DNA of 64,000 nt from Veillonella denticariosi JCM 15641 (GTDB lineage: Bacteria > Bacillota > Negativicutes > Veillonellales > Veillonellaceae). Within the stretch, counting starts at the first letter, position 1. The number at the start of each line of letters is the position of its first letter. The position numbers and the translations under genes are program-made. This document shows, one piece after another, positions 7,327 to 41,771 of this stretch. The DNA lies in assembly GCF_002959855.1 (NCBI RefSeq), contig NZ_PPDB01000003.1, positions 1 to 64,000 on the forward strand, in the 5' to 3' direction. The notes beneath the pieces were generated by a model. It made no database searches. It was not told the DNA's origin and worked only from the letters and a program-made list of their open reading frames with translations.

Positions 7327-8502
7327 TTAGTCCTCCTTTACGATACGGTCCCACAAAGAATTGATATAGGATGTTTCCCGCTCCGTCAACGGCTGTTGCC
7401 AGACAGACTCGGCGAATTGATTGAACAGCTCCCGCTCATTAAGCGATTTAAAAATAGGATCCGATATTTCCGCCGTCGGCATTGCAACTCGGCCGACCAG
7501 CTCAATGGTCATACACTGATGATACACTTGCCTCAACTTTGCCATTCCATCCATTACCGGTATCGTATCGAGCAGGCGAACCTGTACATAATCATCACGA
7601 TATGCATTTTGAAGAGCTGTACTATTCAGCAAATCTTCAAAATATCCTTCAAGAATCACCACATCCCGCTTCGCCTCAACAGGAATGGTATCAACCTCAA
7701 CCTGCCCTTTCCCATCCATATCGACAATGGTAAAAGATTTTTTCTGCGCATGCTCATCAAAGGAATATTTTAAAGGAGATCCGCTATAACGAATATAGTC
7801 CGCCCCCATGCGTTGCGGTCCATGCAAATGACCGAGAGCCGTATAATGAAAGTCTTTAAATACAGCCGGATTAACCATCTCGCTGCCCCCAAGTGATAAG
7901 GTGCGCTCTGAACCGCCTACCTCGCCGCCCATCACAAAGGCATGACTAAGTGCGATAGAACGCATACCGTTCGGAACCTGACTCTGCAGATGTTCACTCC
8001 AGGCCTGATACATATGGTCATAACTATGAAGATTAGTAACCGACTCCTCGGCAGATATACTTTCACCAAGTCCTAGACTAACCGCTATACGTCTCGGCTC
8101 GCTAAAAGGCATCGGACAGATTGCCACCGCCCCATCGGAAGCCTCGAAAACATAGGGTTCCAATGAACGTTGCGGAGCCCCCCAGATATGAATACCGGAA
8201 CGGCCGAGCATCGAACGACCGACCTCGAGCCGTTCCGCCCCATCGTGATTTCCGCTGACCACAAACAAGGTAATCTTATAATCCATGGCGAGGCGGGTAA
8301 TGATGGAATCCCATAATTCAACAGCCTCCACAGGCGGTACCGCACGATCGAATACATCGCCCGCCAAAAGCACTCCATCTATTTTTTCATCACGAAGGAT
8401 ATGGAAAAACTGATGTTCTAACACATGGGCCTGATCATCTGTTAAGTATTGACCGTAAAAGATACGCCCCAAATGCCAATCCGCCGTATGTAGCAAACGC
8501 AT
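7327..8502 (-). CDS. sbcD: SbcD, nuclease subunit of SbcCD
   Basis: A 391-residue Mre11-type metallophosphoesterase. Metal-binding motifs are Asp8 and His10 (TADWHLG), Asp49 (LAGDVFDR) and Asn85-His86 (SGNHDGAE), with a later GHLHGPQ motif. It provides the 3'-5' exonuclease and endonuclease activity of SbcCD. The length is typical of SbcD. It is the first gene of the sbcDC pair. A possible -10 (TATAAT, 8552-8557) lies upstream without a good -35. Confidence 0.95.
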   Translation of the reverse strand: MRLLHTADWHLGRIFYGQYLTDDQAHVLEHQFFHILRDEKIDGVLLAGDVFDRAVPPVEAVELWDSIITRLAMDYKITLFVVSGNHDGAERLEVGRSMLGRSGIHIWGAPQRSLEPYVFEASDGAVAICPMPFSEPRRIAVSLGLGESISAEESVTNLHSYDHMYQAWSEHLQSQVPNGMRSIALSHAFVMGGEVGGSERTLSLGGSEMVNPAVFKDFHYTALGHLHGPQRMGADYIRYSGSPLKYSFDEHAQKKSFTIVDMDGKGQVEVDTIPVEAKRDVVILEGYFEDLLNSTALQNAYRDDYVQVRLLDTIPVMDGMAKLRQVYHQCMTIELVGRVAMPTAEISDPIFKSLNERELFNQFAESVWQQPLTERETSYINSLWDRIVKED

Positions 8503-8621
8503 AACAAGCCGCCCTTCCCCAAACTAAAATAACAATCGATTCATTACCCTTATTATACAATGAACACCATCACAATACATCTTGCTAAAATCATGACATA
8601 TACTCTATAGGCCTATATGGC

Positions 8622-8657
8622 CTGTAGACATTATATAGACTGTAAACATTATATGTA
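8622..8657. repeat. Two-copy 18-bp direct repeat
   Basis: CTGTAGACATTATATAGA (8622-8639) is followed at once by a copy with 15 of 18 matches (8640-8657). It lies in the gap between nfo and sbcD. Just before it is the inverted repeat AGGCC-N5-GGCCT. No function is evident. Confidence 0.45.
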
Positions 8658-8728
8658 CTTCTTAAATACTGTATCTGCTTTGTGTAACTCTTTTATCAAA
8701 ACGTTAACCGCTACATATAAAACCAAGA

Positions 8729-9565
8729 TTAAGCATTTTCAACGATGGAGCGAAGCATGCTGATTTCTCGTGCATATCCGTCCAATTCATTAGGCGTCTC
8801 CAAATAAAACGGCAAATTCGTCAACTTCGGATGGGTGACAATTCTTGCGATAGCATCGATGCCGATATGCCCTTCTCCGATTTTTTCATGACGATCCTTA
8901 TGAGCACCGCGAGGATTTTTAGAATCATTGAGATGAATTGCCTTTAAACGGTCTAGCCCTACAAATCGGTCAAATTCATCAAGCACGCCGTCCAAATCAT
9001 CTATAATGTCATAGCCTCCTTCGTGAATATGGCAGGTATCGACACAGACGCCCATATATTCTTTCAGTTTAACGCCATCGATGATGCGGGCAATTTCTTC
9101 AAAACGGGAACCCACTTCAGTACCTTTCCCCGCCATCACTTCCAGCAGAACCGTGGTCTTCATGCCAGGAAACAGCACCTCGTTCAAACAGTCGACGATA
9201 TATTCAATTCCTTGATCCACGCCTTGCTTCACATGACTGCCCGGGTGAAAGTTATACATCTGTCCCGGCAGATATTCCATGCGCTCCAAATCCTCCATCA
9301 TAGACTGTTTAGCAAAATTTCGTAAATCCTCCTTCGCCGCACACGGATTATATGTATACGGCGCATGTGCTAAAATCGTTCCGAAGTTATGTTCCTTCAT
9401 ATATGCATCAAGAGCGTTCATATCTTCAACATCTAATGCACGCATGCCGCCACCACGAGGGTTGCGGGTAAAATATTGGAACGTATTGCCACCGATAGCG
9501 GTCGCTTCTTTCCCCATATGTAAATAACCTTTACTGATTGATAAATGACTACCTATAACAAACAT
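8729..9565 (-). CDS. nfo: Endonuclease IV (AP endonuclease)
   Basis: A 278-residue TIM-barrel enzyme of the Nfo family. It cleaves DNA 5' to abasic sites in base-excision repair and acts in the cytoplasm. The N-terminus ([10 protein letters not shown]) and motifs such as [29 protein letters not shown] and the terminal LETPNE region give the His/Glu/Asp trinuclear zinc ligands. AGAGGTG lies four bases before the ATG. It is probably monocistronic. Confidence 0.95.
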
Positions 9566-9670
9566 AAAACACCTCTAACCTGAAAAATTCTTAAAATCTT
9601 ACAATCTATTAATAATACACCTAACATAAACCTATAAACCAAAATGAATCGTCCCTGTATTAAAACTATA

Positions 9671-9710
9671 AAACCCCTACCGTGAAGGCAGCCCTTCAAC
9701 GACAGGGGTT
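9671..9710 (-). terminator. perR terminator
   Basis: On the minus strand an outer stem AACCCCT/AGGGGTT encloses an inner TGAAGG/CCTTCA stem and is followed by TTTATAGTTTT. It begins six bases after the perR stop codon. Confidence 0.85.
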
Positions 9711-9715
9711 ATGTA

Positions 9716-10135
9716 TTAATGACTTTCTTTTTTAGCACAGGCCGGGCAAACACCTTCAAAGGTAATGTGTTGACCTATAATTCGATAATCGCTACCTTGA
9801 TTAGCAATCTCCGAGATAGCTTTCAAATCGACGCCCATTAAATCCTCCACCTTGTTGCAGCGAATGCAACGGATGTGGCAATGGTCCTCCGTATCCCAAT
9901 CGTAATGAGCCCGTTCATCACCGACCTCTAAAATTTTCACAAGACCGATTTTTTCAAAAATCTCCATTGTCTTGTATACGGTGGCTAAACTCATGCTTGG
10001 ATGTTCCGGACGCAATGTATGATACAACATTTCTGCCGTCGGATGATCATGATGAGCACGCAAAGCATCATAAATCGCAATACGCTGTGGTGTTACCTTA
10101 AACCCCTGACTACGTAAAATCTGTGCGATATCCAT
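9716..10135 (-). CDS. perR: PerR-type peroxide-responsive repressor (Fur family)
   Basis: A 139-residue Fur-family regulator. Every regulatory-metal ligand of Bacillus subtilis PerR is present with a constant offset of six: His31, Asp79, His85, His87 and Asp98 (PerR His37, Asp85, His91, His93, Asp104). Asp98, where Fur has Glu, favours PerR over Fur or Zur. Structural-zinc cysteines are Cys90, Cys93, Cys130 and Cys133. The N-terminal half is a winged helix. In PerR, iron-catalysed oxidation of the two histidines releases DNA. Its own promoter and a terminator make it a single-gene unit. Confidence 0.88.
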   Translation of the reverse strand: MDIAQILRSQGFKVTPQRIAIYDALRAHHDHPTAEMLYHTLRPEHPSMSLATVYKTMEIFEKIGLVKILEVGDERAHYDWDTEDHCHIRCIRCNKVEDLMGVDLKAISEIANQGSDYRIIGQHITFEGVCPACAKKESH

Positions 10136-10174
10136 AATAATCTACCTTTCTCCACTTGGAAATCTACAAGGTAT

Positions 10175-10190
10175 TGGCCATTATCGGCCA
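10175..10190. promoter_or_regulatory. Inverted repeat in the perR leader
   Basis: TGGCC-N6-GGCCA lies in the untranslated region between the perR promoter and its start codon, beside two copies of CTTGTA. It could form a small RNA stem or bind a protein. No known site matches it. Confidence 0.3.
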
Positions 10191-10213
10191 TTTACAAGAA
10201 ATAATTATTCTTT

Positions 10214-10242
10214 ATTATAGCAAAATTCTCACCATTTATCAA
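10214..10242 (-). promoter_or_regulatory. perR promoter with possible PerR-like site
   Basis: On the minus strand TTGATA (10237-10242), a 17-base spacer and TATAAT (10214-10219) form a strong promoter. Overlapping and just after the -10 is AGAATAATTATTTCT, an AT-rich near-palindrome loosely similar to PerR boxes (TTATAATNATTATAA). Autoregulation is plausible but the match is weak. Confidence 0.7.
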
Positions 10243-10269
10243 GATAAACAGTAGCAAGTATTAGGTAAT

Positions 10270-10302
10270 AAAAAATGTGGATTGCCCAAAAGCAATCCAC
10301 AT
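10270..10302 (-). terminator. Terminator of the DEAD-box helicase gene
   Basis: A perfect 11-bp stem (ATGTGGATTGC, 10275-10285, with 10292-10302) is followed on the minus strand by TTTTTTATT. It lies 5 bases after the cshA stop codon. Confidence 0.9.
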
Positions 10303-10306
10303 CATA

Positions 10307-11851
10307 TCAATCTTTAAAGTACGGCTTAAAGCCTTCCCCTTGATGGCGTTGTTTCTTCTCACCGCGTGGACGATCAAACTTTCGATCATCACGGCGACGG
10401 TCACTTCTACGATCACCTTTGCGGTCATCACGACTGCGACGAGAACGATCTCCATCTCGACGACGATCACCGTCACGACGGCGACGGTCGCTGCGACCGC
10501 GACTGCTATCACGGCGACGACGTACGCGCAACGGTTTTTCCTCCGTAATATTAACAGGGGTCGTATCCGGTTCCTTTGTCAACAATTTAAGAGCCGCTGC
10601 TAACAGCGTTACGGAATCCGTATCGTTCAACAACTCCTCGGCACTCGTTTTAAACGGCGCCAATGCCTCTAAATTATCCGTCATTTCAACGAGGCTTTCA
10701 ATTGCCAAACGTTGTTGACCTTCAAGGACTTCACCTAAGGAAGGTGCACGACGGCGTGCGATTTTACGTTTCGTTAAACGCTCGATAGCATGTAAATGCT
10801 CCATTTCACGAAGAATAACGAACGTGAAAGCTTGACCCGCCTTACCGGCACGGCCTGTACGACCTACGCGATGTGTATAGCTTTCAGGATCTTGAGGCAT
10901 ATCATAGTTATATACGTGAGACACGCCGGAAATATCAAGACCACGAGCCGCTACATCCGTAGCAACAAGAATATCGATAGTGCCTTCACGGAATTGGCGA
11001 ATTACGCTGTCCCGTTTTTGCTGAGACAAATCGCCATGGATGCCTTCCGCCATGTAACCGCGTTTCTTAAGACCTTCCGTCACTTCATCAACACGGCGTT
11101 TCGTACGCGTGAAAATGATAGCGAGGTCAGGTGTCTGAATATCAAACAGACGGCAAAGAACATCAAATTTTTGACGGTCCTGTACTTCGATATAGTATTG
11201 TTCAATCAAGTCCATCGTCACTTGAGTCGGTTTCATGCGAATCAAGGTCGGCTCTGTTAAATACGTTTCAGCCAATTGTTGAATGGCTTTCGGCATCGTA
11301 GCAGAGAACAACAATGTCTGATGATCTTCCGGGATAGCCCCTAAAATTTTATTGATGTCATCAACAAAGCCCATGTTTAACATTTCATCGGCTTCGTCCA
11401 ATACGACAACTTTCACATGGTCAAAGTGGATAGAACCGCGATCCATATGGTCCATCAATCGGCCCGGTGTGGCAACGATGATTTGAGGGTTCTTTTTCAA
11501 TGCACGGAACTGACGACCGATATCTTGACCGCCGTAAATAGGCAAGGCCGTGATATTCGTGTACTGAGCCATTTTGTTAAGCTCTTCAGCTACTTGAATA
11601 GCTAATTCTCGTGTAGGGGATAAAATCACTACTTGAACGTGACGCTCGTTCCCGTCTACGCGTTCCAATACAGGTAAGCCGAATGCGGCGGTCTTGCCGG
11701 TGCCTGTTTGAGCCTGACCGATCATATCTTTACCGCTCATGGCTACCGGGATAGCTTCCTGTTGAATTGGCGTAGGCTCTTCAAAGCCCATATCGTTTAA
11801 CGCTCTTAGAACAGGTTCGCTAATCATTAATTGTTCAAATTTTTCTAACAT
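10307..11851 (-). CDS. cshA: DEAD-box ATP-dependent RNA helicase
   Basis: A 514-residue helicase with the usual two RecA-like domains: Q-motif and Walker A (AQTGTGKT) near 46-53, [14 protein letters not shown], and the C-terminal ARGLDI and [10 protein letters not shown] motifs. After about residue 440 comes a low-complexity tail of repeated RRD/RSDRR units, a basic RNA-binding extension typical of CshA/DeaD. It likely works in RNA turnover, ribosome assembly and cold response. AGGAGG is present upstream and the unit ends with a strong terminator. The gene symbol is by family resemblance. Confidence 0.9.
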
Positions 11852-35195: not shown

Positions 35196-36071
35196 CTACC
35201 GAGTTCCAGATGCGTATTCACCCATATTAATATCTAGAACCTCTCGAACGGGCTGGATTAAAGAATCCTCATATTGAACCTTCCATTGAATGTCTGGACT
35301 CATATCTCCATTTTCTAAGCCGGCAATCGTTTCCCCATCACCGATAGGATTGTCGTGCTCAAAAATATAATACAACACACTATACGCATGATTAACTACC
35401 TCATCAGGATTCATACCGTGAAAGTGATACTGAACATCAGGCAAGAATAAGGTACTCATACATAGAGAATCAACCATCATGTCTTCGGTACCTTGAATGC
35501 TAAAATAACGCACATTTACAGCATAATAAATAAACCGAGTTACCGCTTTATCTGAATGATTTTCTATCGATTCACGACTTAAAAACTTATGAGACGGTCC
35601 AAATACAACGGCTTTACAAGACGGATATAACTCTAGCAATGCATCTACATATTTTACAAGCATATCTGCACGTTCTTTGGCCTCTAAACCAGAGGCTAAC
35701 ATATCCGTAGCAAACACCCTGTATTGACACTCTACTAACAACTCATCCACATTAGGACAATCCCACACCTGACTACGTTCAAAATCATCTAATACAGGTT
35801 TATCAATTTTCTCACAATCCATCACCATTAACGTCGGTGAAATATCTGCATCAGTATCCTCGTAATGGACCTTATAATTCTGAGGGGAGAAACCAGCAGA
35901 CTCACGACGGTGATCAAAACAATCAACAGGTCCTAGATGCTTCGTGAATATCTCTATCATTGTATCCCGGTCAGGCATATCACACTGCTTCGGCATTAAT
36001 AACTCAACGAAAAAGATACCACCTGGTCGGACTGAAGTATCTGTTAAATCTTGATTAAAAACTTGGCTCAT
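35196..36071 (-). CDS. DUF4261-type protein
   Basis: A 291-residue soluble protein without signal peptide. The C-terminal half (about 150-285), including SCKAVVFGPSHKFL and a VRYFSIQGTEDMMVDSLCMSTL segment, resembles DUF4261, by memory. The start ATG 36071 has AGGAGAG six bases upstream; an upstream in-frame start at 36110 has none. Its function is unknown. It has its own promoter and terminator and sits next to, but not in, the citrate lyase operon. Confidence 0.7.
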   Translation of the reverse strand: MSQVFNQDLTDTSVRPGGIFFVELLMPKQCDMPDRDTMIEIFTKHLGPVDCFDHRRESAGFSPQNYKVHYEDTDADISPTLMVMDCEKIDKPVLDDFERSQVWDCPNVDELLVECQYRVFATDMLASGLEAKERADMLVKYVDALLELYPSCKAVVFGPSHKFLSRESIENHSDKAVTRFIYYAVNVRYFSIQGTEDMMVDSLCMSTLFLPDVQYHFHGMNPDEVVNHAYSVLYYIFEHDNPIGDGETIAGLENGDMSPDIQWKVQYEDSLIQPVREVLDINMGEYASGTR

Positions 36072-36177: not shown

Positions 36178-36221
36178 AAAAAGGCCCTCCCTATGAGTCC
36201 GAGGACCATAGGGAGGGTCTT
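36178..36221 (-). terminator. Citrate lyase operon terminator
   Basis: A strong stem (AAGACCCTCCCTATG paired with CATAGGGAGGGCCTT) followed by TTTTTG on the minus strand, about 80 bases after the citF stop. Confidence 0.9.
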
Positions 36222-37848: not shown

Positions 37849-38803
37849 CGTATTCTGCTCCTTCCTCTAATTCAACTTTAATGCCTGCAGCCCGTGCTTT
37901 ATCGACTACGCGCTGCGCACGTACTACGATAGGTCCATCGATCATTTTACCATCTACGGAGATTACGCCTTTATTGTTGCGCAATGCATCGGCATAGCTG
38001 TTCAATACCTTAACGGAATGAGCAATTTCTTTTTCATCAGGAGTGAATACTTCGTGGATAATTTTGATTTGGCTTGGATGAATACAGGACTTGCCGTCAT
38101 AGCCCAACGCTTTAATGAATTCAACTTCTTCGCGGAAACCTTGAGGATCTTTCACGTCGGAGAATACTGTATCGATTACGCGGATGCCTGCTTCACGCGC
38201 CGCATGAAGAATGGTTTGACGAGCGAACAACAATTCGACAGCAGGTTTATGTTTTCCCGTGCGAAGGTCAGCACGATAATCTTCAGCACCGAGAGCGATA
38301 GCCACTACGCGAGGACCGTGACAGATTTCACGAACATTGTACAAGCCTCGAACGGATTCGATAGCCACGATAATGTTGATTGTGCCTTCCGGCCAGCCGT
38401 TAGCTTTTTCCACTTCTTCAATCTTCTTCGCTACGATTTCAACCTCGGATACATCTTCAGTTTTAGGTAAACGAATCATATCAGGTTTAGCAGGAACGAT
38501 GACATCAAGATCATCATAACCATAAGGAGTCTGTGTAGGATGGTTGATACGCACGACCGTTTCAGCTCGGAATTTACGGGATTTTAATGCTTCTGCCGTC
38601 AAAAGACGAGCTGTGTCTTTTTCCGTAACAGGCACGGAATCTTCAATATCGATCATGATGGAGTCAGATCCGTGAATATCTGCACTGTTAATCATTTTAG
38701 GTGTATTACCCGGTACGAACATCATGGAACGGGACAAACGTTTTTTAGCCGCCTCCGTTAATGGGTTTGTTTTAACTTCTGGGAATGTTTTATCGTTAGC
38801 CAT
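37838..38803 (-). CDS. citE: Citrate lyase beta subunit (citryl-ACP lyase)
   Basis: A 321-residue TIM-barrel protein of the CitE/HpcH family that splits citryl-ACP to acetyl-ACP and oxaloacetate. Marks: RSMMFVPGNTPKM near 25-37, the acidic DIEDSVP and the magnesium-site Glu in VAIESVRG. Its ATG overlaps the citD stop (TAATG). It is a few residues longer than the average CitE. Confidence 0.94.
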   Translation of the reverse strand: MANDKTFPEVKTNPLTEAAKKRLSRSMMFVPGNTPKMINSADIHGSDSIMIDIEDSVPVTEKDTARLLTAEALKSRKFRAETVVRINHPTQTPYGYDDLDVIVPAKPDMIRLPKTEDVSEVEIVAKKIEEVEKANGWPEGTINIIVAIESVRGLYNVREICHGPRVVAIALGAEDYRADLRTGKHKPAVELLFARQTILHAAREAGIRVIDTVFSDVKDPQGFREEVEFIKALGYDGKSCIHPSQIKIIHEVFTPDEKEIAHSVKVLNSYADALRNNKGVISVDGKMIDGPIVVRAQRVVDKARAAGIKVELEEGAEYDVK

Positions 38804-39072
38804 TATGCTTTGCTCCCCCTTTCCAATGCGCCCAACACGCGGGCTTTAATCGTGTAATCCCAAGCATTTTTATCTTGTACGATTACTTTTACGCCATCAA
38901 AACCGGCTTCTTTCACCGTGTTCAAGATAACGGATTTAATTTGGTCGCCGTATTGGCGAATAACTTTGGATGTTAATTCGATTTCGATACCGCTAGCAAT
39001 CGGTTCCACCGTTACTAATGCATCATTTTTTTCGTCGAAACCCGCTTGCGCAGCTTTTACTAATTGTGCCAT
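38803..39072 (-). CDS. citD: Citrate lyase gamma subunit (acyl carrier protein), attachment serine missing
   Basis: An 89-residue CitD homologue. The start ATG 39072 has AAGGATG upstream; the longer frame to 39102 is not needed. CitD normally carries a phosphoribosyl-dephospho-CoA group on Ser14 in the motif AGTLESSD. Here the aligned motif is AGFDEKND, with Lys15 at that place and Asn16 next, so the attachment serine is absent. The rest aligns well, including GDQIKSVIL and the C-terminal KARVLGALERG. No citC, citX or citG is in the window. Confidence 0.88.
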   Translation of the reverse strand: MAQLVKAAQAGFDEKNDALVTVEPIASGIEIELTSKVIRQYGDQIKSVILNTVKEAGFDGVKVIVQDKNAWDYTIKARVLGALERGSKA

Positions 39073-39175: not shown

Positions 39176-40579
39176 TTAACCGATCATACCGATGAAAGTC
39201 CACCAGGGTATACCAACAACGAAGAGTAGAATCCAGCTCAAAATAGCAAGGATCCCACCGGCAGTCCACCAGTCTTTCAAGTTGTTGTAACCTGCGGAGT
39301 AAATGATAGGTCCAGGAGATGCGCCGTAGTGAGTTACGAGACCACCGAACGCATTTGTTGCAAGCAATACGAGACCGAACATAACCGGATCTACACCTGA
39401 TGCCATACCTACCGTCAAGAATACAGGAAGCATGGATGCGATGTATGCGGTACTGGAGGCGAACAAGTAACGGATTACAACACTGATAGCGGACAGAATC
39501 AATACGACTACGAGTGGTGAAAAATCGAGCGCCAAGTTTGTTTGCATAAACGTTGCAAGCCAAGCGAAAAATTTAGCTTTAGTCAACGCTGTGGACAAAC
39601 CGAGGATGGCACCGAACCAGATGAACGTATTCCAAACAGCTTTAGTTTGAACCATGTCATCCCAAGTGATGATGCCGCTCAAGAATACGATAGTCATAGC
39701 GACTAATGCTACTGCGGTCGCGCTTAAATCAACGCCGATGGAAGGCAATGCCCAACCGATAAGAGCAAGGATGAATACAACAGCCAAAATCTTTTCAGAT
39801 ACCTTCATAGGTCCCAATTTAGCAAGACCGTCAGCAGCCAATTTCTTGTTGTCGATTTCCACGCTTTCAGGGCGGTCAATCCAGTAACCGATAAGAGGAA
39901 CAAAGATCAACATTACAAGGCCAGGAAGTGCCAAAGCTAATGCCCACTCGCCCCAAGTCATGCTGAGACCTGTAATCTTGGTAACGAAGTCCAGTGCCAA
40001 CACATTCGGAGCCATAGCAGTTAAGAACATGAAGGATGTAATCTTTGTTACGAAGTAACCGTTCATCAAGATGAAGGAGCCGCCGCGTTTCGCCGTATCA
40101 CCCGGATAAGAACCGATGGATTCGGCGATGGATAAGTTAATCGGATAAATAATACCGGCCGCACGTGCCGTGTTAGAAGGTGTTGCGGGAGATAGAATCA
40201 AATCAAGAAGTGCTGTTACATAACCCAAACGCAATACGGTAGAACCGAATGCACGAATCAGGTGATAAGCCACGCGGTGACCAAGGCCGGTCTTACCAAA
40301 CGCTACGCTCAAGGAGAACGCCGCGATGATCATCCACAATGCCGTGGAGCCATAACCTACTAAAATTTCTTTCGCATTGTCCAAGAATAATGCGGAAGCG
40401 GATAATACAGCTAATAAAATAATTTGAATTGGATACGGTTTTAAAATCAAACCTAAGATACCTGCAATGTAGAAACCAAATAGGCGCCAAGCGGTATCTG
40501 AAAGTCCTTCCGGCGGAGTCGTGAACCAGAGGATAACCGGAATTAGCACGATAACGGCTAATTTTAGAATTCTTTCCAT
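39176..40579 (-). CDS. DASS-family dicarboxylate/citrate transporter
   Basis: A 467-residue membrane protein of the divalent anion:sodium symporter (SLC13/CitT) family with about 11-13 membrane segments. Both substrate/sodium motifs are present: ATPSNTARAAG near residue 130 and SSTAYIASMLP in the second half. Being directly upstream of citDEF, it most likely imports citrate, perhaps in exchange for succinate. The start at 40579 has AAGGAAACGAC upstream; the longer frame to 40633 is unlikely. Confidence 0.9.
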   Translation of the reverse strand: MERILKLAVIVLIPVILWFTTPPEGLSDTAWRLFGFYIAGILGLILKPYPIQIILLAVLSASALFLDNAKEILVGYGSTALWMIIAAFSLSVAFGKTGLGHRVAYHLIRAFGSTVLRLGYVTALLDLILSPATPSNTARAAGIIYPINLSIAESIGSYPGDTAKRGGSFILMNGYFVTKITSFMFLTAMAPNVLALDFVTKITGLSMTWGEWALALALPGLVMLIFVPLIGYWIDRPESVEIDNKKLAADGLAKLGPMKVSEKILAVVFILALIGWALPSIGVDLSATAVALVAMTIVFLSGIITWDDMVQTKAVWNTFIWFGAILGLSTALTKAKFFAWLATFMQTNLALDFSPLVVVLILSAISVVIRYLFASSTAYIASMLPVFLTVGMASGVDPVMFGLVLLATNAFGGLVTHYGASPGPIIYSAGYNNLKDWWTAGGILAILSWILLFVVGIPWWTFIGMIG

Positions 40580-40859: not shown

Positions 40860-41771
40860 TTATGCTTTATATTCTCTCAATATACTCTTATCTACTACCG
40901 TATGTTTCTTGTAATAATTACGTACGTATTCGATGAAAGTTTTCACCGCCACAAGGTTTGCCGCATCCTTCGTGTACACCATATTGGTATCGCGCGTAAT
41001 ATACTGCCCTTCCCTATTGCGCAACGGACTCACGTAGATATCTTTATCCTTACAGGACCCGAGGCCCATATAGGTCAAGATGGACCATCCCAGTCCGGCG
41101 CGCACAAAGTGACGACACGTACTCATGGAGTTGACCTCCATCGCAACCATTGGAGGACCTTCAAAATGTTCGGCGCACCAGTTTTCGATAATATTGGCTA
41201 CGGATGCATCCGTCTGGTACCGAATGAACGGCACTTTCTCAAGCGACTCCGGAGCCACCAACTCCTTGTAGACCAGGCAATACGGTTCTTTCAGAAGCAG
41301 TTCCGATTCACCGGACACCTCGTAACCACCGCGGGCAAAGGCCACCATGCAGTCACCGGTGTTGAACATCTTCACCACCTGATGGCTGAAAGCCGTCTTA
41401 ACCTGAATGTGAACATCAGGATATTGTTCACGGAATGATTGCAGCAGAGTCGGCAATTCATAATCCGCAAAATTAATGGACGATGCGATTTTCAAGGTAC
41501 CTTGAATCTTGCCGGATGCGGAATTCATCGCATTTTCCAGTGTCTCCTGTTCCTGCAGCATGCGCTTACAGTATTCATAAAAGATTTCACCCTGTGCCGT
41601 CAGAGCAATACCGTCAGCATTACGCAATAACAGAGAATGGCCCAAAGCTTTTTCCATATGCCGCAACCGATAACTTAAGGCCGGCTGCGATAAAAATAAT
41701 GTTTCGGCCGCTCTCGTAATGTTCCGCTCGTTGACGACAGTTACAAAAGTACGCCATTCTCTATCATCCAT
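40860..41771 (-). CDS. LysR-family regulator, probably of the citrate genes
   Basis: A 303-residue LTTR with N-terminal winged helix (NITRAAETLFLSQPALSYRLRHMEK, about residues 15-40) and an effector domain from about 90. It lies directly upstream of the transporter and citrate lyase genes in the same direction, separated by its own terminator. A CitR-like role is inferred from location and from the inverted repeat at 40734-40754. RBS AAAGGAG. Confidence 0.88.
   Translation of the reverse strand: MDDREWRTFVTVVNERNITRAAETLFLSQPALSYRLRHMEKALGHSLLLRNADGIALTAQGEIFYEYCKRMLQEQETLENAMNSASGKIQGTLKIASSINFADYELPTLLQSFREQYPDVHIQVKTAFSHQVVKMFNTGDCMVAFARGGYEVSGESELLLKEPYCLVYKELVAPESLEKVPFIRYQTDASVANIIENWCAEHFEGPPMVAMEVNSMSTCRHFVRAGLGWSILTYMGLGSCKDKDIYVSPLRNREGQYITRDTNMVYTKDAANLVAVKTFIEYVRNYYKKHTVVDKSILREYKA

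Follow-up and report, generated by a model that had tools for sequence, protein, structure and literature searches.

Textbooks treat a covalent arm derived from coenzyme A (CoA) as the hallmark of citrate lyase. In Veillonella denticariosi JCM 15641, the acyl carrier subunit of this enzyme, CitD, has lysine at the place of the serine that bears the arm, and this Lys-type CitD marks a genuine variant of citrate lyase that extends across the family and recurs in other lineages. The citDEF operon probably (with a likelihood of roughly 0.6) encodes a citrate lyase that lacks the covalent phosphoribosyl-dephospho-CoA arm and cycles free acetyl-CoA and citryl-CoA, with CitD kept as a subunit; within this reading we infer that CoA is used in free form, which role CitD plays and that citrate is the substrate. 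Among the matches listed for the literature searched, seen in partial texts and with most subscription journals outside its scope, no description of a Lys-type CitD was found. The variant bears on the annotation of citrate lyase in a major genus of the human mouth and gut.

Organization of the citDEF operon

The window, a stretch of 64,000 nucleotides from one contig, contains citD, citE and citF in close succession (Table 1), with overlaps of 1 base (citD/citE) and 11 bases (citE/citF). The symporter gene has the same orientation and precedes citD across a gap of 103 bases, and the terminator candidate 3′ of citF consists of a strong stem followed by a T run on the minus strand. Beyond it, a DUF4261 protein is encoded (35196-36068, minus strand), and six named Veillonella loci (L123-L128) likewise have one close to the operon.

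Table 1. Coordinates of the operon, its neighbors and related gene fusions
Feature	Coordinates	Strand	Basis
LysR-type regulator, upstream	40860..41771	-	Best match CcpC, 205.7 bits, below cut-off of 400
DASS-family sodium-coupled anion symporter	39176..40579	-	TIGR00785, 401.4 bits; Pfam Na_sulph_symp and CitMHS
citD, Lys-type gamma subunit, 89 aa	38803..39072	-	Above citD cut-offs
Motif AGFDEKND, CitD residues 10-17	39022..39045	-	Class alignment
citE, beta subunit (acyl lyase), 321 aa	37838..38803	-	Best NCBIfam match citE
citF, alpha subunit (transferase), 515 aa	36301..37848	-	TIGR01584 citF, 648.6 bits, cut-off 501.45
Probable intrinsic terminator, 3′ of citF	about 36178..36219	-	Hairpin read by eye, then folded
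citD-citE fusion (D then E) in V. ratti, V. seminalis, V. intestinalis, Veillonella sp. R32 and Veillonella sp. KGMB01456	L138 and L140, 6001-7245; L134, L137, L139		
citE-citD fusion (E then D), 424 aa	G579, L182, 6324-7598		

CitD exceeds its curated cut-offs (PRK13253, 77.7 versus 65 bits; TIGR01608 citD, 73.7 versus 63.5 bits; Pfam ACP, 82.5 versus 25.1 bits), and CitF likewise belongs to its family by score. CitE reaches 344 bits, below the curated citE cut-off of 443.4 though citE is its best family; the CitEs scored against this cut-off are of Lys-type operons only (the window and one clade B sequence, 344.6 bits).

Lysine at the attachment site of CitD

Lysine had been claimed in an earlier note on this DNA to stand at the attachment site, and the class alignment confirms it: Lys15 of the window CitD (codon AAA, 39030-39028 on the minus strand), within AGFDEKND, is aligned to the Ser column of canonical CitD, and the E. 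coli K-12 protein, as given in the record of its genome, reads AGTLESGD at this motif. The window CitD therefore lacks the arm-bearing serine by which canonical membership is recognized. The class alignment comprises 90 CitD rows, 27 of them from the window's family (Veillonellaceae); 48 have Ser in this column, 40 have Lys, one has Thr and one has Pro. Ten loci that represent the window itself or duplicate other loci in the set were omitted from this alignment (L001, L002, L011, L015, L032, L033, L098-L101; L033 is identical to the window), and L089 and L097 have no scorable CitD.

All 28 of the 28 family genomes contain citD, and Lys occupies the site in every one (the 27 alignment rows plus G364 [L033], whose CitD is 100% identical to that of the window). 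The dN/dS ratio of citD against ten relatives is 0.016 to 0.15, with dS saturated in distant pairs, and citD is under purifying selection. Family-wide Lys, seen in the comparison across Veillonella and relatives that the earlier note suggested as a check, and low dN/dS rule out a sequencing error or a pseudogene.

A second signature was considered at the AxDC position, namely Tyr or Phe. Within the class it accompanies Lys in 39/39 scorable rows, with Cys in 43 of the 48 Ser rows; its diagnostic value does not extend beyond the class, as Tyr or Phe is frequent there in CitDs of the Ser type too. The class CitD with Pro at the place of Ser (L077, 4200-4523, in G020) reads AGTMEPSD, and G020 has no citX, no citG and no true citC.

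Distribution and phylogeny of Lys-type CitD

The class survey examined 380 genomes, of which 130 have a PF06857 match. Half of these (65/130) were searched with the window CitD, which matched in 52, and for citX, citG and citC; the remaining 65 were read only where the locus was extracted (L002-L031), with Ser in every aligned one. The sample excludes the class of E. coli. Lys-type CitD is found in named relatives (Veillonella parvula, V. atypica, V. rogosae, V. tobetsuensis, V. magna, V. montpellierensis, V. ratti and V. seminalis), in four Pectinatus species and in Megasphaera paucivorans. A pattern search of named relatives, which was biased toward Lys and is not a neutral sample, returned Lys at 31 of 34 loci, Ser at two (L148 and L154) and one locus that is cut off. 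The clade B profile matched 29 of 398 phylum genomes, 26 of them outside the class, where residues were read by eye.

On CitE+CitF trees of the phylum sample, Lys-type operons form four separated lineages: clade A (Veillonella, Pectinatus and Megasphaera), clade B (L076, L084, L086, L090 and L093), clade C (G709, G747 and G423) and clade D (G579). A single Lys clade within the class is rejected on the CitE+CitF tree (log-likelihood 265 lower; p-AU, 1e-42), and on well-supported branches the Ser/Lys label must have changed at least five times, in some cases perhaps by loss rather than gain. A Ser-type CitD (VGFVESND; L064, 5984-6277) is nested in clade A; the first residues of a neighboring gene product at this locus resemble, by eye, oxaloacetate decarboxylase alpha.

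Absence of the arm-making genes

The observation that no citC, citX or citG lies in the window holds and extends, by Pfam models, to the whole genome. No match to the citX and citG models was found in this genome (99.99% complete), and true citC is absent; the CitC model has only a partial match (25.6 bits) in a 171-aa frame, which is probably CoaD. The genome thus departs from the canonical set in the pair citX and citG as well as in the citC ligase.

The same pattern recurs across the class. The 65 genomes searched comprise 33 with Lys-type CitD only, 4 mixed, 13 with Ser-type and no Lys-type CitD read, and 15 outside these tallies. Each of citX, citG and true citC is absent from the Lys-only genomes of 8 genera (0/33 for each gene), and all three are matched in 4/4 mixed Lys and Ser genomes (G377, G378, G348 and G062; in G348, citG is fragmentary and lies at the end of a contig). 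Ten of the 13 Ser-type genomes have citX, and the exceptions are G020, G021 and G030 (63% complete); G020 also holds the Pro row, and second matches in G021 and G087 are unread. Outside the tallies, no CitD residue was read in G012, G013, G027, G033, G036, G037, G045, G054, G058, G059, G060 and G278; G032 has a Lys-type CitD with a second match unread, and contains citG without citX or true citC; G086 has Thr at the site and true citC without citX or citG; and G273, with an unread CitD residue, has all three genes.

Outside the class, where citX and citC were searched, the Lys-only genomes G709, G747 and G579 lack both (citX, 0/3; true citC, 0/3), and the mixed genome G423 has both. A citX match is present in 12 of the 22 other genomes, in one case (G668) with two stops. 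True citC is absent from all ten genomes without citX (0/10), whose nine readable CitDs comprise eight with Ser and one with Ala. Ser-type citDEF without citX and true citC occurs in eight genomes outside the class and two within it. These genomes are related and the counts are not independent; no significance is claimed. Lys is associated with the absence of the arm genes, but genomes with Ser do not invariably contain them. The serine accordingly does not prove that an arm is present, and loss of the arm may extend beyond Lys-type operons, Lys perhaps being a consequence rather than a cause of it. The Ser clusters whose genomes have neither citX nor true citC (L185, L190, L192, L195, L200, L202, L203 and L205) and one with Ala at the site, read by eye, in a genome of the same kind (L204) are possibly arm-less too. 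In an otherwise canonical Ser-type cluster (L186 in G456, 8086-10647), citF and citC each extend over two frames, through decay or sequencing errors.

The usual group could also sit on another CitD residue, placed there by divergent CitX and CitG that the Pfam models miss. These models detect known families only, and Ser35, the sole invariant serine in the 11-row clade A CitD alignment, would offer a site. The same models, however, readily detect CitX (130 to 184 bits) and full-length CitG (238 to 284 bits) in other genomes of the class, true CitC is absent as well, and Ser35 is present in Ser-type CitDs too, which makes this explanation very unlikely. Another attachment residue, one of the options raised in the earlier note, is thereby disfavored.

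Conservation of CitE and CitF, gene fusions and the CitD model

Both catalytic subunits appear intact, as had been noted from the sequence: their reading frames are open, and the window retains 66/68 CitF columns and 29/30 CitE columns that are invariant in 21 Ser-type rows, including all invariant charged residues of both proteins. Parallel changes between clades A and B amount, at the thresholds used, to two weak positions (CitF Met81 and CitE Asn276, window numbering). In the V. ratti group, citD is fused in frame to citE (the two frames read out encode 414 aa each), and in clade D the fusion has the opposite order. In-frame fusions of citD and citE suggest that CitD still belongs to the working enzyme. 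An AlphaFold model of the V. seminalis fusion (pLDDT, 85.2; pTM, 0.84) has a CitE half that is nearest to malyl-CoA lyase 5ugr (Z, 30.8; rmsd, 2.4; 289 residues).

Decay of the operon into a remnant of citrate lyase would account for the missing serine, the missing citC, citX and citG and the non-use of citrate given in the available part of a review (PMC8757872), yet it is extremely unlikely in view of the low dN/dS of citD (0.016 to 0.15), its presence in 28/28 family genomes, the in-frame fusions, the invariant CitE and CitF residues that are kept and, in the portion of a V. dispar study consulted, the listing of “citrate lyase” as a differentially expressed function (PMC10100942).

In the AF2 model of the window CitD (pLDDT, 91.8), Lys15 lies between strands 8-10 and 18-24. 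VIA-align places 5vit chain C first (Z, 10.9; rmsd, 2.1; 85 residues; 14% identity), tied with translation-factor domains (Z of 10.1 and below), and in Foldseek EF-G-type chains lead, with 5vit_C 16th. We take 5vit chain C to be MdcC, the carrier subunit of malonate decarboxylase; MdcC bears an arm of the same kind on a serine. This predicted fold match is suggestive only, and sequence searches of the PDB gave no significant match for CitD.

Lipoyl and biotin arms are usually attached to lysine, and each of the four lineages has Lys in place of the serine. Lys15 might therefore bear a different covalent acyl-carrying arm, for instance a lipoyl-like one, attached by a recruited or unrecognized ligase. 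No lipoyl or biotinyl domain occurs among the 50 Foldseek rows listed or the VIA-align rows for the CitD model, which argues weakly against such an arm, and we regard it as highly improbable. The recurrence of Lys in each lineage is left unexplained by a free-CoA cycle alone, and enzymes not yet recognized could place another group on it.

Substrate of the Lys-type lyases

Gene neighborhoods of Lys-type operons in clade A suggest citrate as the substrate. CitMHS symporters above the citrate:proton cut-off are encoded at the Lys-type loci of V. magna and Pectinatus brassicae, the two that were scored, and CitMHS is present at 8 of 13 longer Veillonella-family stretches (L102-L114). Other Lys-type loci of clade A have DASS transporters instead, and the Megasphaera locus combines PEP carboxykinase (PEPCK) with a 2HCT transporter (420.8 bits, below the citrate:cation cut-off of 549). 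CitMHS homologues of 725 to 745 bits also flank citDEF clusters with arm genes (L068, L081, L100 and L101). The CitMHS, 2HCT or DASS transporters and PEPCK beside clade A loci point to citrate. CcpC senses citrate and is the best family, always under its cut-off, for the LysR neighbors of the seven Lys-type and three canonical loci chosen. Three of those seven Lys-type loci belong to clade B, where CcpC-like LysR genes also stand beside loci with neighbors unlike citrate genes, so that a CcpC-like regulator is weak evidence for citrate.

A catabolic role is the likelier one, since the window's genome has no match to citrate synthase (PF00285) and its sole aconitase-family open reading frame (419 aa) is LeuC sized. 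The reverse role, as a citrate synthase in a genome without PF00285, was rejected: citrate would have no visible onward route, the aconitase-family frame being LeuC sized.

According to the part of the review that was available, citrate, isocitrate and malonate are not metabolized by veillonellae (PMC8757872); “citrate lyase” is among the differentially expressed functions in the section on V. dispar referred to above (PMC10100942). The Lys-type CitDEF might accordingly be a free-CoA lyase for another 2-hydroxy acid, such as citramalate or a tartrate-like compound, at least in Veillonella. Besides the review, the similar and most probably homologous citramalate lyase (PMC4682846, in the part consulted), the window's DASS-family transporter, which is not citrate specific, and the neighbors of clade B operons would fit a different substrate. 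The CitMHS, 2HCT and PEPCK neighbors at other clade A loci and the lack of methylaspartate ammonia-lyase in the window's genome speak against it, and we consider this alternative unlikely. The suggestion that the enzyme is no longer a citrate lyase may still hold for Veillonella: the review's denial of citrate use favors it, and the citrate-type transporters and PEPCK beside operons of the same clade oppose it.

In clade B, CaiB-type CoA-transferase genes are found at 4/5 loci and HMG-CoA-lyase-like and amidohydrolase-like genes at 3/5. All three types adjoin L119 (= L084), L120 (= L086) and L090, the amidohydrolase-like gene being recognized by eye in two of the three; L076 has the CaiB-type gene only, and at L093 neither a CaiB-type nor an HMG-CoA-lyase-like gene was seen. 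Clade B may therefore cleave another substrate, yet in a free-CoA setting, and these neighborhoods perhaps represent an undescribed degradation pathway.

A proposed citrate lyase cycle on free CoA

In the arm-less citrate lyase proposed here, citrate would receive its CoA from acetyl-CoA through CitF (citrate + acetyl-CoA → citryl-CoA + acetate), after which CitE would cleave citryl-CoA to oxaloacetate and acetyl-CoA. Ordinary acetyl-CoA would be the recycled cofactor, which would make CitG, CitX and CitC dispensable. Lys-type CitD would act as a scaffold, or as a docking surface or noncovalent subunit that holds free CoA; as a guess, Lys15 might contact a phosphate of free CoA. Replacement of the arm by free acetyl-CoA and citryl-CoA would account for the absence of the serine and of CitX, CitG and CitC, for the conservation of CitE and CitF and for the retention of CitD. 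Of the options in the earlier note, a different or noncovalent acyl carrier is thus favored, in the form of free CoA thioesters. The points against the arm-less reading are the citrate-negative review, the Ser-type genomes without arm genes and the Ser-type CitD of L064 inside a Lys clade.

More tentatively, an armed carrier enzyme may have reverted to free CoA several times, with the Ser-to-Lys change making CitD a noncovalent CoA holder and the arm genes being lost. Armless citDEF, of Lys type and in some cases of Ser type, would then be a widespread and unrecognized class in the Bacillota, found in every Veillonella genome examined, a broader account that we regard as possible but doubtful. 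If true, an arm-less lyase in which separate lineages carry one and the same substitution would show how a covalent arm can be lost and provide a simpler enzyme, with three genes instead of six. It makes testable the question of what the arm adds beyond free CoA, and the claim that veillonellae do not use citrate is worth retesting.

Comparison with known systems

The canonical ATP-independent citrate lyase of E. coli has the same three subunits in the same gene order, citD-citE-citF, as the window, but the window's CitD lacks the attachment serine and its genome lacks citX, citG and true citC. In the canonical cycle, as outlined in the portion of the source consulted, CitF converts acetyl-ACP and citrate to citryl-ACP and acetate, CitE cleaves citryl-ACP to acetyl-ACP and oxaloacetate, and the arm is made by CitG and CitX and acetylated by CitC (PMC10798043). 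Transferases of the CitF/MdcA family accept CoA esters in vitro, according to the available text of PMC9813914, and the characterized CitE-like enzymes named in the part of PMC3832036 consulted use free acyl-CoA thioesters.

Citramalate lyase of the Clostridium tetanomorphum type also has three subunits that are most probably homologous to those of citrate lyase and, unlike the window, its gene clusters as published in the excerpt consulted include CitCXG (PMC4682846). The window's genome has no match to methylaspartate ammonia-lyase (PF07476), which places its enzyme apart from the citramalate lyase of the methylaspartate pathway.

Among the free-CoA lyases that resemble CitE (malyl-CoA lyase, CLYBL, M. 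tuberculosis CitE and RipC), malyl-CoA lyase is the one to which the CitE half of the V. seminalis model was aligned above. These enzymes work without CitD and CitF, and the available part of one study describes this for M. tuberculosis CitE (PMC7164622).

The citryl-CoA synthetase and citryl-CoA lyase of Hydrogenobacter share with the enzyme proposed here a free citryl-CoA intermediate. Citryl-CoA synthetase is ATP dependent. The two routes differ in how citryl-CoA arises, through the synthetase in Hydrogenobacter, as given in the portion of PMC3917532 consulted, and, in our proposal, through a CitF-type transferase that would exchange acetyl-CoA for citryl-CoA.
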